IMG/VR virus record: IMGVR_UViG_3300030060_000325
Coordinates: 1,070-32,456 of that record
DNA: 31,387 nt
Origin: a virus
Direction: 5' to 3' (one strand)
Under the pieces are notes generated by a model that did not search any database, had not been told where the DNA came from, and saw only the letters and a list, made by a program, of their open reading frames with translations. The position numbers were made by a program, and so were the translations under genes. Each line of letters starts with the position of its first letter. The stretch's first letter is position 1. Of this stretch, positions 1 to 31,387 are shown in pieces.

Positions 1-131
1 CTAAACAATTTGGTCAGCTATTGGGCGTATCAGAAAGAGCAATTTTCTACTATGAACACGGGCAGAGAAAGATACCCAAGCCAGTGCAGCTTCTAGTGCT
101 GCTGTATAAAAAATACGCAGTTGTAGAATAG
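1..131 (+). CDS. Small XRE-type helix-turn-helix protein, 5' end cut by the window edge
   Basis: The frame opening at base 3 reads KQFGQLLGVSERAIFYYEHG, then a RKIPKP stretch and a short tail, and stops at 129-131. The 'QFGxLLGVSxR..YYExGxRxIP' pattern is the recognition-helix half of an XRE/Cro-type DNA-binding domain. The start codon is missing here, but the last seven bases of the window (ATGCAGA) supply it in frame if the ends are joined. That would give a protein of about 45 residues starting MQTKQFGQLL. A terminator-like hairpin follows at 173-199. The likely role is a small transcriptional regulator ending the plus-strand early operon. Target unknown. Confidence 0.7.
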   Translation, partial: KQFGQLLGVSERAIFYYEHGQRKIPKPVQLLVLLYKKYAVVE

Positions 132-1683: not shown

Positions 1684-1712
1684 TGTTAAATTAATTCTTG
1701 ACTACTTGTCAA
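1684..1712 (-). promoter_or_regulatory. Sigma70-like promoter for the repressor operon
   Basis: On the minus strand TTGACA (1712-1707) is followed by a 17-base spacer and TTAACA (1689-1684). The predicted transcript start, about 7 bases further on, falls at 1676-1677, which is the repressor ATG. That is consistent with the missing ribosome-binding site. Confidence 0.6.
1698..1712. promoter_or_regulatory. Candidate repressor operator dyad
   Basis: TTGAC-TACTT-GTCAA is a perfect 5-bp inverted repeat with a 5-base centre. It covers the minus-strand -35 box and the TTGTCA that may act as the plus-strand -35. Its place between a Cro-like gene and the divergent recombination operon makes it the natural operator candidate. 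It is short, so chance cannot be excluded. Confidence 0.5.
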
Positions 1713-4611: not shown

Positions 4612-4946
4612 TGGCAAAGCAGTATATTAAAATGTGCAACATCAAGATGTGGGAAAACGATGGTGATTCAAAGCGTGGGCTGTACAGCAACAGCAAGTGG
4701 ACACCATATCGTGATGGCTCTCCGGCTGACGTTACATTCCGTGCCGGATGCACATACTCCGTTGCCGCATTTCAAAATGATGATGGCACAATTAACATTG
4801 CCATATCTGAAGTCAGGGATTACCAGGCTAAAGATAATATTGCTGACGGCATATCGCAGGGCGGTCTAAAGCCAGTGGGGGATGCTATCAATCAGCGTTA
4901 CCAGCCAGCAGTAAAGGAAACAGACGATGATGACATCCCGTTTTAA
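4611..4946 (+). CDS. SSB-like single-stranded DNA-binding protein
   Basis: A 111-aa protein ending ETDDDDIPF. An acidic tail closing with Asp-Asp-Ile-Pro-Phe is the signature C-terminus of bacterial and phage SSBs, which use it to recruit replication and repair enzymes. The body has aromatic residues suited to ssDNA stacking (MWENDG, KWTPYRDG, YSVAAFQND), and I expect a small OB-like fold, though this is not proven. It is coupled to the upstream annealing-protein gene by TAATG. A role in coating phage ssDNA and bringing in host replication proteins fits the lack of a phage polymerase. Confidence 0.7.
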   Translation: MAKQYIKMCNIKMWENDGDSKRGLYSNSKWTPYRDGSPADVTFRAGCTYSVAAFQNDDGTINIAISEVRDYQAKDNIADGISQGGLKPVGDAINQRYQPAVKETDDDDIPF

Positions 4947-5136
4947 TGCTGAAGGTAAGCTGCTTTACACAGCTAAAGAAGCTTGTGAGATCCTGTTTGG
5001 CACTGCAAGCAAAACGAAACTTAACCTGTTGTACAGGATGCTGAAGGCAGGGGATATAGAGGCAGAACGTGCAGGGAATACATGGCTTATTCCTCGCAGG
5101 GTTCTGGTGGAGCTACATGGAAAAGACAATCTGTGA
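4927..5136 (+). CDS. Excisionase/MerR-like helix-turn-helix protein
   Basis: A 69-aa protein: LLYTAKEACEILFG, then KTKLNLLYRMLKAGDIEAER, then AGNTWLIPRRVLVELHG. This is the 'T..EAa.iL.....vy.li..G.i.a.r.G..w.IP...l' pattern of MerR/excisionase-family winged HTH proteins (helix_17 type). ATG 4927 or ATG 4930 can start it, and both overlap the SSB gene. No integrase is seen in the window, so it is more likely a transcription or replication regulator than a true excisionase. The stop overlaps the start of the next frame as TGATG. Confidence 0.65.
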   Translation: MMTSRFNAEGKLLYTAKEACEILFGTASKTKLNLLYRMLKAGDIEAERAGNTWLIPRRVLVELHGKDNL

Positions 5137-28502: not shown

Positions 28503-29789
28503 TTACAAAGTAAACGGATTATACTCATTAACTGCGACTTGTTGAGGGGGCTTAATATAACTTTGTCTATTTTCCAACCCAACAGCCAGATACCTAAACG
28601 CATCCGCAGCATGGCTTGTGAAATCATGCCTTGGATGATCCCTAAATATTTTTTTACGTTCATCCCACTCCTGCCTGTATTGCTTTAGCATTTCCACGCC
28701 TTCAGCGCACATATCACGGTCAAAGTGACACTTGGGTATCAATAAACGTGCTGCATTGATACCGTCAGCAACTTTCATTTTCGGGATGACTTTGAACCTG
28801 ATGCCGAGGCTGAACGCCGTTTCGAGGCGGCTTTTGCCCGAACCGAGTTCTCTGACTTCGATGTCATGGGGGGCGAGATGATCTCCCCAGTGGTAGTCTT
28901 TTTGCCGCAAGACCTCAGCATAGTGATCAAGTCCAACACCGCTGTTCTCATAGTAGTCAATAACATTTACTGCTCCACTTCTAAATATCTGTGCAAACCA
29001 AATAGCTGTGCTATCGTTTATACCTAAATCCCATGCAGTATGTACAGGGTATGCAGGGTCATACGGAACTCTTGTTACCCTGCCAGCATCCTCTGCCTCT
29101 GAAAGCAACCGCCCATAGTAAGCACCAATAATAGCTGCTGTAAACGAACACTCATACTCTTGCTCATACTGCTCTAGCGTCATCTGGGTCTGAGCAGCCT
29201 CTAGCTCTTCTTCTTTTACCAAACCACTCTCAGAAGCCTTGACTATCTTCCAGTACCACTGGTCTGACTCACTTTGCGTTTCAGTCTTAGCAGTTTCCAA
29301 TAAATCATAAAAATGATTATGTCCTGCTGGTGTACCTAAAAACACAGCCGCCCCCTGTCTGTCAGATAGGGCCGGTCTTACAACCTCCCCCCATACTCTA
29401 GGGTTCTGCATCCCATACTCATCAAATACACATAAGTCTAAATAAATACCACGTAAGCTGTCAGGATTTTCAGCCGACAACAGCATCAACCGCCCCCCAT
29501 TTGGAAAGTCTACACGCAGTTCTGTCTCATTAAAGCTTACACCTGGTATTACACCAGCGTAATACTTTACATAATCCCAAGCTATTCTCTTAGCCTGTGT
29601 AAAGGTGGGGGCCACAAAGGCAACCCTTGGCCTTGGTAACTCACAAGTCAAACAATGTTTTATTAAATGATTTACAGCCCAAACAGTCTTGCCAAAACGC
29701 CTGTGCATTACAAGCACATTCCAACGCTTTAAACTCTCATGCATCTCAGCCTGTAATACTCTAGGCTTGTAAGGTATCTTAACTTGCAT
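28503..29789 (-). CDS. terL: Terminase large subunit, 428 aa
   Basis: Packaging ATPase and nuclease. Walker A is HRRFGKT (residues 29-35). Walker B is LCVFDEYG, with Asp123-Glu124. The nuclease part has HTAWDLGINDST with its first catalytic Asp, and ends HDFTSHAADAFRYLAVG with the terminal Asp. At 428 aa it is clearly shorter than the T7 large terminase (about 586 aa), so the packaging motor comes from another lineage than the T7-like tail. The gene overlaps the small-subunit gene by 11 bases. DNA-end type (pac, cos or terminal repeat) cannot be read from it. Confidence 0.92.
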   Translation of the reverse strand: MQVKIPYKPRVLQAEMHESLKRWNVLVMHRRFGKTVWAVNHLIKHCLTCELPRPRVAFVAPTFTQAKRIAWDYVKYYAGVIPGVSFNETELRVDFPNGGRLMLLSAENPDSLRGIYLDLCVFDEYGMQNPRVWGEVVRPALSDRQGAAVFLGTPAGHNHFYDLLETAKTETQSESDQWYWKIVKASESGLVKEEELEAAQTQMTLEQYEQEYECSFTAAIIGAYYGRLLSEAEDAGRVTRVPYDPAYPVHTAWDLGINDSTAIWFAQIFRSGAVNVIDYYENSGVGLDHYAEVLRQKDYHWGDHLAPHDIEVRELGSGKSRLETAFSLGIRFKVIPKMKVADGINAARLLIPKCHFDRDMCAEGVEMLKQYRQEWDERKKIFRDHPRHDFTSHAADAFRYLAVGLENRQSYIKPPQQVAVNEYNPFTL

Positions 29790-30165
29790 CTGTTTCCCAG
29801 ACTATCCGAACAGTGCCATCACCTATCTCAACACCAGCCCTGTTCTTCTGCTCACCATACCTGTCAGGCAATAACTTCCCAACCTTCCACCTGACGTGAG
29901 TAGCATAATCCCTCAGCACATTAGGGTCATAATCCTTCTCACCCCTCAAACGCTGCTGATATAACTCATCCAACTCCTCAACAGCCTTCTCAGCACTCTG
30001 CTGCTGGGCCGTCCTAATCCTACGCTCTAACTCAGCATCCTTACCCATTCGGCTGTAAATGTTACGCCTACTTATACTCAACTCAGTACAAGAACGAGCA
30101 AGACTATGACCCTCCATAATCATGCCAACTAAGTCATCAATCCTTGTCTTTGTAAGCTTTGCCAT
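29779..30165 (-). CDS. terS: Terminase small subunit, 128 aa
   Basis: The N-terminal helix-turn-helix is TKTRIDDLVGMIMEGHSLAR, then SCTELSISRRNIYSRMGKDA. A long charged helix follows (ELERRIRTAQQQSAEKAVEE), and the end is HVRWKVGKLLPDRYGEQKNR. This is the usual form of a phage small terminase: DNA-binding head, oligomerising helices and C-terminal motor contact. It is the first gene of the late minus-strand block, about 170 bases from the predicted promoter. GAGG lies almost against the ATG, an unusually tight ribosome-binding site. Confidence 0.85.
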   Translation of the reverse strand: MAKLTKTRIDDLVGMIMEGHSLARSCTELSISRRNIYSRMGKDAELERRIRTAQQQSAEKAVEELDELYQQRLRGEKDYDPNVLRDYATHVRWKVGKLLPDRYGEQKNRAGVEIGDGTVRIVWETDAS

Positions 30166-30342
30166 GCCTCAACATAACCATTCAGACTGTGTGTGTAAAC
30201 GTAGTATTTAACACATGGATAGAGTGGTGGCGTGCGTGGGGGTGTGCGATCTATATAATGCCCCCCCGTCATGCAAGATCTGCTTTGCAAACAGTGCAGC
30301 CTTGTATTGCCGTGCGAAACAGTGTGTGCTGTGTGTGGTAAA
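30166..30342 (-). other. Untranslated leader of the late operon, no gene seen
   Basis: Between the predicted late promoter and the terS start. It holds GT-rich stretches and a G/C tract pair (GGGGG near 30230 and CCCCCCC near 30263-30269) that could form a weak stem. TTGCCGTGCG (30307-30316) is the reverse complement of CGCACGGCAA at 149-158. The short frames here on both strands look non-coding. A packaging site could lie here or within terS, but none can be recognised. Confidence 0.4.
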
Positions 30343-30371
30343 AATATAAAGAATACGCTACAAAATGTAAA
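30343..30371 (-). promoter_or_regulatory. Sigma70-like late promoter
   Basis: On the minus strand, TTTACA (30371-30366), exactly 17 bases, then TATATT (30348-30343). Each box matches the consensus in five of six positions. It faces the terminase and the whole structural block. No phage RNA polymerase gene is visible, so use of host RNA polymerase is expected. Confidence 0.65.
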
Positions 30372-30414
30372 GAACTTTGAAGCCATCGTAGCATAAATCA
30401 ATCAAAATAAATCT

Positions 30415-30427
30415 GACTGATCCAGTC
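30415..30427. repeat. Short inverted repeat next to the iterons
   Basis: GACTG-ATC-CAGTC, a perfect 5-bp dyad with a 3-base centre, two bases before the first 23-bp repeat. It may be a protein-binding site or part of an origin. Confidence 0.4.
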
Positions 30428-30428
30428 T

Positions 30429-30520
30429 GCAATGCTTGCTAAACAATGTGTGGAATGTTTGCCTTACATTGTAGGCAATGTTTGCTGATCAATGTATCCA
30501 ATATTTATATCATATATTTT
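30429..30520. repeat. Tandem 23-bp repeats (iteron-like) with adjoining AT-rich DNA
   Basis: Units at 30429-30451, 30452-30474 and 30475-30497, in exact 23-base register, with a decayed fourth (30498-30520). Each opens with G-[CG]-AATG-[TC]-TTGC and has C-A-[AT]-TGT around positions 16-21. Unit 1 matches unit 3 at 19 of 23 positions and unit 2 matches unit 3 at 16 of 23. AT-rich DNA follows to about 30520. The set lies between two outward-facing promoters. Origin iterons or tandem operators would both explain it. Confidence 0.6.
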
Positions 30521-30525
30521 TTCTC

Positions 30526-30554
30526 TTGACAATGTTGAACAATGGTCATATATT
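30526..30554 (+). promoter_or_regulatory. Strong sigma70-like promoter for the right-end plus-strand genes
   Basis: TTGACA (30526-30531), a 17-base spacer, then TATATT (30549-30554). The spacer contains a near-palindrome, CAATGTTGAACAATG (30530-30544), a likely operator. The first gene starts 37 bases past the -10. Confidence 0.7.
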
Positions 30555-30578
30555 AAGATTACAGCAAACAACTATTGA

Positions 30579-30586
30579 GGATCAAA
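30579..30586 (+). promoter_or_regulatory. Extended ribosome-binding box GGATCAAA (first of a set)
   Basis: GGATCAAA precedes the start codons at 30591, 30784, 30981 and 31259, at 30579, 30773, 30970 and 31248, always three or four bases before the start codon. A variant AAAGATCAA (31369-31377) precedes the ATG at 31381. Upstream purines (GAAAGG) give the Shine-Dalgarno; the conserved TCAAA is extra. Confidence 0.6.
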
Positions 30587-30590
30587 TAGA

Positions 30591-30758
30591 ATGTTAAAAA
30601 CCATCAAAAAAGTAAGAACAAGCGGCAAAGGCTCAAAGATGATCGCCTATTATATACGCCGTGGCTATATAATCATTGGATATCATCATGGGTCAATGGT
30701 TCTTGAAAAGTCAAAGTCTTGTGAATTAAAACCTACAATCACGATCGCAGCAAAATAG
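30591..30758 (+). CDS. Small basic early protein, 55 aa
   Basis: Reads MLKTIKKVRTSGKGSKMIAY, then YIRRGYIIIGYHHGSMVLEK, ending ELKPTITIAAK. It has the look of a small beta-sheet protein with a basic N-terminus. First gene after the strong promoter at 30526-30554, with the extended ribosome-binding box. Early position and size suggest a host-takeover or regulatory peptide, but no family is recognised. Confidence 0.6.
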   Translation: MLKTIKKVRTSGKGSKMIAYYIRRGYIIIGYHHGSMVLEKSKSCELKPTITIAAK

Positions 30759-30783
30759 CAAAAAAATAGAAGGGATCAAAGCA

Positions 30784-30960
30784 ATGAAAACATCAGATAC
30801 AATTATACTAATGACACTTGGCATGGTTTTTATGTTATCAGCAATGGTTGATATACTGACTCAAGTAATGCCTCACCCATTCCTGACAATTCTGTTAGGT
30901 GTCACTGGCCTTGTTATGTTTCATCTACCAATGATCATGACAAGCCTCAAAATCAAATAG
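30784..30960 (+). CDS. Small membrane protein with two helices, 58 aa
   Basis: Reads MKTSDTIILMTLGMVFMLSA, then MVDILTQVMPHPFLTILLGV, ending TGLVMFHLPMIMTSLKIK. Two hydrophobic segments (about 7-26 and 33-52) are joined by QVMPHP, a helical hairpin. Early membrane proteins of phages often block superinfection or alter the host membrane. That is inferred from position and topology only. Preceded by the extended ribosome-binding box. Confidence 0.6.
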   Translation: MKTSDTIILMTLGMVFMLSAMVDILTQVMPHPFLTILLGVTGLVMFHLPMIMTSLKIK

Positions 30961-30980
30961 CAAGCGAAAGGATCAAAACA

Positions 30981-31151
30981 ATGACACTCACAAAAGACAA
31001 CATGATCAATATGTATCTAGATTGGTTTAATAACTTTCTGACGGTTCAAGCCTTTGCAGATCATTATCAACTATCAATAGACAAGGCAGAACAAGTCATA
31101 AATGAAGGCAGATATGAACACGAAAGGCGTGTATTTGCTGATCTGTTATAA
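30981..31151 (+). CDS. Small helical protein, 56 aa
   Basis: Reads MTLTKDNMINMYLDWFNNFL, TVQAFADHYQLSIDKAEQVI, then NEGRYEHERRVFADLL. The middle (FLTVQAFADHYQLSIDKAEQ) resembles a helix-turn-helix: helix, turn at HYQLS, recognition helix. It may be a small DNA-binding regulator. GGATCAAA box upstream, and a terminator-like hairpin 12 bases after the stop. Confidence 0.6.
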   Translation: MTLTKDNMINMYLDWFNNFLTVQAFADHYQLSIDKAEQVINEGRYEHERRVFADLL

Positions 31152-31163
31152 CCAAACATGGCT

Positions 31164-31190
31164 AGGCCGTGTCATGCGGCCTGGCCTTTT
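31164..31190 (+). terminator. Candidate terminator or attenuator
   Basis: AGGCCG (31164-31169) and CGGCCT (31177-31182) form a 6-bp GC-rich stem with a 7-base loop, followed by GGCCTTTT. The U tract is only four bases, so partial termination is likely. It would reduce expression of the genes further right. A 10-base direct repeat TTTAAATGGC follows at 31188-31197 and 31210-31219. Confidence 0.45.
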
Positions 31191-31258
31191 AAATGGCCTT
31201 GTAAGGCTGTTTAAATGGCAATAACGCCAACATAGCAAACAAAGAAAGGATCAAAGTT

Positions 31259-31387
31259 GTGAAAATCAAACTAGAAAAACTTGTGTCAATAACAGAAAGC
31301 AATGTAGGAAAAAAACGGGATAGAATAGAGCATGGCTTCTATAAAGAGATCGCAATCATACATAACGAAAGATCAACGCCATGCAGA
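31259..31387 (+). CDS. Small charged protein, cut by the window end
   Basis: GTG 31259 with the GGATCAAA box. Reads VKIKLEKLVSITESNVGKKR, DRIEHGFYKEIAIIHNERST and stays open to the last base. Rich in Lys, Glu and Ile. If the ends join, this frame continues about 26 codons into the left end, overlapping the HTH gene, and stops near base 93. No family recognised. Confidence 0.5.
   Translation, partial: MKIKLEKLVSITESNVGKKRDRIEHGFYKEIAIIHNERSTPCR

Follow-up and report, generated by a model that had tools for sequence, protein, structure and literature searches.

The window analysed here, a stretch of 31,387 bp, comprises positions 1070-32456 of a viral record of 32,456 bp (L142). The late genes lie on the minus strand, with the terminase subunits first, and the early genes on the plus strand from 30591, and a row of 23-bp repeats is found between the two (Table 1). 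The record holds 10 N just outside the left end of the window (1060-1069 in L142), and these fall inside the gene of a small HTH protein, here called the junction HTH, the final plus-strand gene before the opposing genes in this record. An Rfam scan gave no credible match.

Table 1. Positions of the features discussed, in window coordinates
Feature	Position	Strand	Remarks
Junction HTH gene, 3' part	1-131	+	Last early gene; 5' part left of the window, across the 10-N gap
XRE/HTH_3 protein, 62 aa	1488-1676	-	Does not track the array
TTGAC-N5-GTCAA palindrome	1698-1712		XRE/exonuclease divergent region; conserved in most relatives
Small terminase subunit TerS	29779-30165	-	First late gene
Conserved block CAATCAAAATAAATCTGACTGATCCAG	30396-30428		Left of the array; near-invariant in array phages
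23-bp tandem array	30428-30520		Three good units (30429, 30452, 30475) and a decayed fourth (30498)
A-site 1, operator-shaped, TGCAATGCTTGCT	30428-30440		Rank 3 of 31,375, GCAA-class operator model
A-site 2, TGGAATGTTTGCC	30451-30463		Rank 7 of 31,375
A-site 3, GGCAATGTTTGCT	30474-30486		Rank 4 of 31,375; best conserved unit
AT-rich element, ATATCAT core	30499-30522	+	Directly upstream of the -35; family-conserved, about 15-18 bp from TTGACA
Early promoter TTGACA-17-TATATT	30526-30554	+	Conserved in the phage family
Palindromic operator TGAACAATGGTCA	30536-30548		In the promoter spacer; sole site of its class in the window
Early operon, small ORFs	30591-31387	+	30591-30758, 30784-30960, 30981-31151, 31260-end; each after a GGATCAAA leader

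A conserved array of operator-shaped units

Three repeat units were found exactly where the sequence-only reading had placed them, at 30429 (GCAATGCTTGCTAAACAATGTGT), 30452 (GGAATGTTTGCCTTACATTGTAG) and 30475 (GCAATGTTTGCTGATCAATGTAT). Their mean pairwise identity of 72% was the top score for any three-copy 23-mer in the window, and none of 100 dinucleotide shuffles of 30166-30590, each scored for its best value over any period from 15 to 35, equalled the observed best score. Tandem Repeats Finder independently reported 30428-30506 with a period of 23, 3.5 copies and a score of 68, its maximum in the window. As had been described, a fourth unit (30498-30520) has decayed in the window; several relatives carry GCAATATTTAATATC at the same place. 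No further cluster turned up when the rest of the genome and the relatives were searched for a second array, only scattered matches.

The first half of each unit is shaped TGCAAnnnTTGCA, and a unit is made up of an A-site, GCAA-N3-TTGC, and a weaker AATGT B-site. With a weight matrix built from the GCAA-class promoter operators of distant relatives, and trained without any array sequence, the A-sites ranked 3rd, 4th and 7th among 31,375 window positions, a result nearer to one strong coincidence than to three because the units duplicate each other. This operator shape favours tandem operators for a switch protein, which had been offered as the alternative to a replication origin.

Searches with TerS and TerL gave 140 related loci. 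A degenerate 23-bp pattern of the third unit matched 12 contigs among 2.9 million viral contigs, and these 12 were close relatives forming a single clade. The 23-bp register was kept in 11 of the 12, and the remaining one (L008) was shorter by exactly two units, a clean loss that left a single unit. The sequence GCAATGTTTGC, at A-site 3, was identical across all array phages. A more distant clade (L062, L066, L067 and L070) had a pair of these sites at this place, spaced 15-17 bp apart, and the array was missing from L089 and L072. In the pooled units the mean major-base frequency was 0.90 in the A-site (the first 11 bases) and 0.83 in the B-site (bases 16-20), against 0.63 and 0.57 in the linkers. 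The pattern is that of a protein-binding site, since the A- and B-site bases are conserved and the linkers are not. A tandem duplication of one ancestral site pair without selective effect would fit the whole-unit copy change in L008 and the simple two-site form of the L062 clade, but with A- and B-site positions conserved beside variable linkers we regard it as very improbable.

On the late side of the array, the GACTG-ATC-CAGTC dyad described before is present at 30415-30427 in the window, but it is not conserved as a dyad, several relatives having CTGATCCAG-CTG. The minus-strand late promoter proposed at 30343-30371 did not hold up: it falls inside an insertion private to the window's phage and is therefore unlikely to be a general late promoter. 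A late promoter of the array clade was looked for and none was identified. The conserved block adjoining the array (30396-30428) is possibly a minus-strand promoter element. Two other conserved blocks were seen near TerS, at 30185-30217 (TGTGTGTAAAtGTAGTATTTAAC) and 30307-30333 (ATTGCCGtgcgAAacAgTGTGTG), the first of which extends beyond the array clade; both are possible late-gene control elements.

Gene linkage and the origin and packaging readings

The relative without the array, L089, is a natural mosaic. Compared with the window, its HTH_17 protein was 100% identical and its SSB-like, Erf-like and exonuclease-like proteins 97%, 97% and 94%, whereas TerL (86%), portal (75%) and the junction HTH (59%) had diverged. 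The array-bearing phages showed the reverse, with terminase and head proteins at 96-100%, the SSB-like protein at 68-69% and HTH_17 at 76%. The names SSB-like, Erf-like and exonuclease-like were given from position, sequence and the annotated modules of pelagiphage Greip, and Pfam gave no match for these three proteins. The array travels with the terminase, capsid and early genes, and because the identities of L089 and of the array phages run in opposite ways we assign it to the terminase/intergenic/early block. In the pelagiphages HTVC010P and Greip the intergenic region differs, and no junction HTH was recognised by eye in those of their early translations that were read.

The sequence-only reading had proposed an iteron-type replication origin, in which an initiator would act on the 23-bp repeats and the AT-rich stretch would be melted. 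In plasmid iteron origins, AT-rich DNA adjoins direct repeats of roughly 22 bp. The array resembles them in its direct repeats of fixed spacing, the 23-bp period being close to that of plasmid iterons, and in the AT-rich DNA alongside. A cumulative GC-skew minimum, which would also favour an origin, was indeed found, at 30183. However, it lies at the divergent gene junction, and because coding-strand skew is mostly positive for the genes of both strands the minimum follows transcription; GC skew was thus rejected as an origin signal. An AT-rich stretch does exist here, but it fits an UP element better than an unwinding region, because relatives have it immediately before the -35, at the UP-element position, and at a near-fixed distance even when they are without the array. 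L089 has the recombination-type module at 94-100% yet no array, and L008 has a single unit. The earlier remark that no phage initiator was obvious agrees with our search, in which none of the early proteins tested fell into an initiator family, many of them being without any family match. Unlike plasmid iteron origins, then, the locus has no initiator that we could find, its AT-rich DNA is better taken as a promoter element and its repeats are not linked to replication-type genes. The origin reading accordingly found no support, as the array does not travel with a recombination/replication-type module and the skew follows the genes, and we consider it quite unlikely. A related cultured phage is reported to depend on host polymerases (PMC10504331).

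The repeats could alternatively be a packaging site that TerS recognises to start packaging. The terS gene adjoins the array at a distance of 260 bp, the TerS proteins of the array phages are 98-100% identical, and the HTH region of TerS differs in L089. Against this, relatives with 84-86% TerS identity and a changed HTH region still have two sites, 15-17 bp apart, and no clustering of the family's contig ends is seen at the array region. The contig ends showed no consistent position and were rejected as packaging termini; PMC10504331 leaves the genome termini of the family unsettled. Packaging seems to us an unlikely though possible function of the repeats.

Promoter palindromes and their co-variation with the junction HTH

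The plus-strand early promoter was present as had been read. The 13-bp palindrome in its spacer had escaped the sequence-only reading and is the main control site in our account. The spacers of the family hold near-palindromes of the same length, TGAACANTGTTCA, TAACCAATGGTTA, CTGCCAATGTTAG, TGCACGCTATGCA, TGTCCAATGGGCA, GGCAAGTCTTGCC and TGCAAGCATTGCA among them. Across the family the spacers had a mean of 4.77 paired positions of 6, against 3.75 after shuffling, and none of 1000 shuffle sets reached the observed value; the operators were chosen by eye, which favours palindromes somewhat, and the shuffle test took the best palindrome per stretch in real and shuffled sequences alike. Where one phage had two tandem early promoters their operators were alike, with 2.4 mismatches in 12 within phages against 4.7 between phages (0/10,000 permutations). 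The word CAATG was also considered as a family-wide element upstream of the promoter and was not among the top enriched words.

In 44 relatives the sequence of the spacer palindrome was lineage-specific and co-varied with the small HTH protein encoded by the last early gene. This junction HTH has 56-79 aa in most relatives examined. Its gene was present in all array contigs long enough to reach it, as no other early gene was; these include L196, in which the ribosome-site filter had missed it. Recognition helices of the form S.RA...YE went with TGNNCA operators, S.QAIWYYE with TAACCA or TAGCCA, S.[QH]AVYYYE with CTGCCA, and.RTI.[NY]YE mostly with GCAA. The association of operator and recognition helix beyond TerS distance gave a partial r of 0.31 (0/2000); the partial association of TerS distance given the HTH was also significant (0.28), so common descent was not fully removed. 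For the window's row of this test the unread N-terminal residues were filled in after relatives, and only native recognition-helix residues were tested.

An AlphaFold model of the junction HTH of a relative (pLDDT 92) was closest to HigA2, Aca2, Aca10, Aca1 and MqsA, with P22 C2 also similar. Aca2, Aca10 and Aca1 were among the best structural matches, with Z of about 9-10.5, in a fold that is common to many repressors. Aca proteins are encoded downstream in their operon and repress it by way of an inverted repeat that lies in the core promoter; a second repeat outside this promoter is sometimes present (PMC9410906). The present system likewise has a small HTH_3-type protein at the end of the same early operon, an inverted repeat lying in that operon's core promoter and, in the model, a helical fold similar to that of the autorepressors Aca2 and Aca10 (PMC9410906, PMC9410881). 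It differs from Aca systems in that no known anti-CRISPR gene was identified, the operator is of 13 bp, an extra array of a different sequence class lies upstream, and repression is predicted from these likenesses. By this analogy, Aca-like autorepression is the likely mechanism at the early promoter. The promoter, with its UP-like AT element and spacer operator, would drive the early genes, and the junction HTH, which most likely dimerises on the spacer operator at 30536-30548, would shut the promoter once the early genes are made, following the logic of an Aca autorepressor. We infer both the binding to the palindrome and the repression.

Candidate binders of the array and the early operon

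Small HTH proteins had been named as candidates for the array. For the junction HTH this suggestion stands in part, as a likely regulator of the early promoter. Scored with the TGNNCA class, to which the window's own promoter belongs, the array units reached at most 1.6, against 18, and the junction HTH was therefore rejected as an array binder by way of its promoter operator class; on this poor score the known HTH proteins of the phage are not expected to read the array class. The other two candidates, at 1488-1676 and 4927-5136, both have their closest homologues in the array-less L089 and were rejected. For the XRE protein (1488-1676) the identity was 89% to L089 against 76-84%, and its own region has a different palindrome, TTGAC-N5-GTCAA. 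For the HTH_17 protein (4927-5136) identity was complete with L089, as given above, and 76% with the array phages. The TTGAC-N5-GTCAA palindrome is probably the autoregulatory site of the XRE protein; it overlaps the -35 of the probable exonuclease promoter.

Candidates for the array binder are TerS, the junction HTH acting in a second mode, some phage protein not yet recognised, or a host factor. In the last case a transcription factor or nucleoid protein of the host would act at the sites to drive late or early transcription. This would agree with the lack of any phage protein demonstrably matching the array and with the position of the sites next to the conserved late-side block; no such host factor was identified, however, and the array is missing from relatives whose early promoter is built in the same way, which makes this explanation rather unlikely in our view.

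The arrangement recalls lambdoid switches in some respects. Three tandem near-palindromes about 23 bp apart lie between divergent transcription units, a spacing like that of the lambda OR operators (also about 23 bp), and the modelled fold of the junction HTH resembles P22 C2. Unlike lambda OR and P22, no integrase or CI-type repressor was seen here, and the array is placed upstream of the promoter, which itself contains a single operator of a different kind; the A-sites are operator-shaped yet mismatched to the phage's own promoter operator. A phi29 p4-type early/late switch (PMC3100819) is alike in having regulator sites between early and late promoters and unlike in that neither a late promoter nor a p4 homologue was identified at the present locus.

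The array is thus probably a regulatory operator array with a strong early promoter beside it, and we infer its regulatory role from the conservation and shape of its sites. From its upstream position it would most likely bind a regulator that tunes the early promoter and/or the divergent transcription. A fuller scheme can be drawn in which GCAA-class operators above a TGNNCA-class promoter could let the repressor of a related phage, or a second HTH protein, control the early genes, the family having a hypervariable and probably anti-defence cassette operon under an Aca-like autorepressor whose specificities diversified like immunity groups; we hold this scheme to be speculative and quite unlikely as a whole.

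The early genes of the array phages were nearly all different: the 13 contigs compared, the window among them, gave 36 clusters, of which 16 were singletons. An ArdC-type anti-restriction gene was present in the early operons of two array-bearing relatives, L190 and L197 (ArdcN E 7e-30; PHROG anti-restriction E 4e-83), and most early genes had no family match. The content suggests an anti-defence cassette operon. A repeated leader (TAGCAAAcaa...AAGGATCAAA) stands before small early genes, at 30579, 30773, 30970 and 31248 and, in L142, at 641 and 999; leaders of the GGATCAAA type are almost confined to the early region. Start-associated sequences that resemble them in concept reportedly occur in cluster K mycobacteriophages. 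The leaders could help cassettes to recombine. At 31153-31230 a strong terminator-like hairpin lies between early genes and is followed by a repeated GTTTAAATGGC element, and L142 540-630 is similar.

We read 30396-30590 as the region that controls the early genes in an HTVC010P-related podovirus, with an operator-type array and predicted Aca-like autorepression, at a probability of roughly 0.55. Podoviruses like HTVC010P abound in the ocean, and the literature consulted gave no account of early-gene repression in them. Pairing the HTH proteins with the promoter palindromes of 44 phages gives a table of repressor-operator pairs that are directly testable, and the early operon is marked as a place to search for anti-defence genes. 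What the array adds is modest, a conserved operator-like row whose putative binder may be found by simple binding assays.
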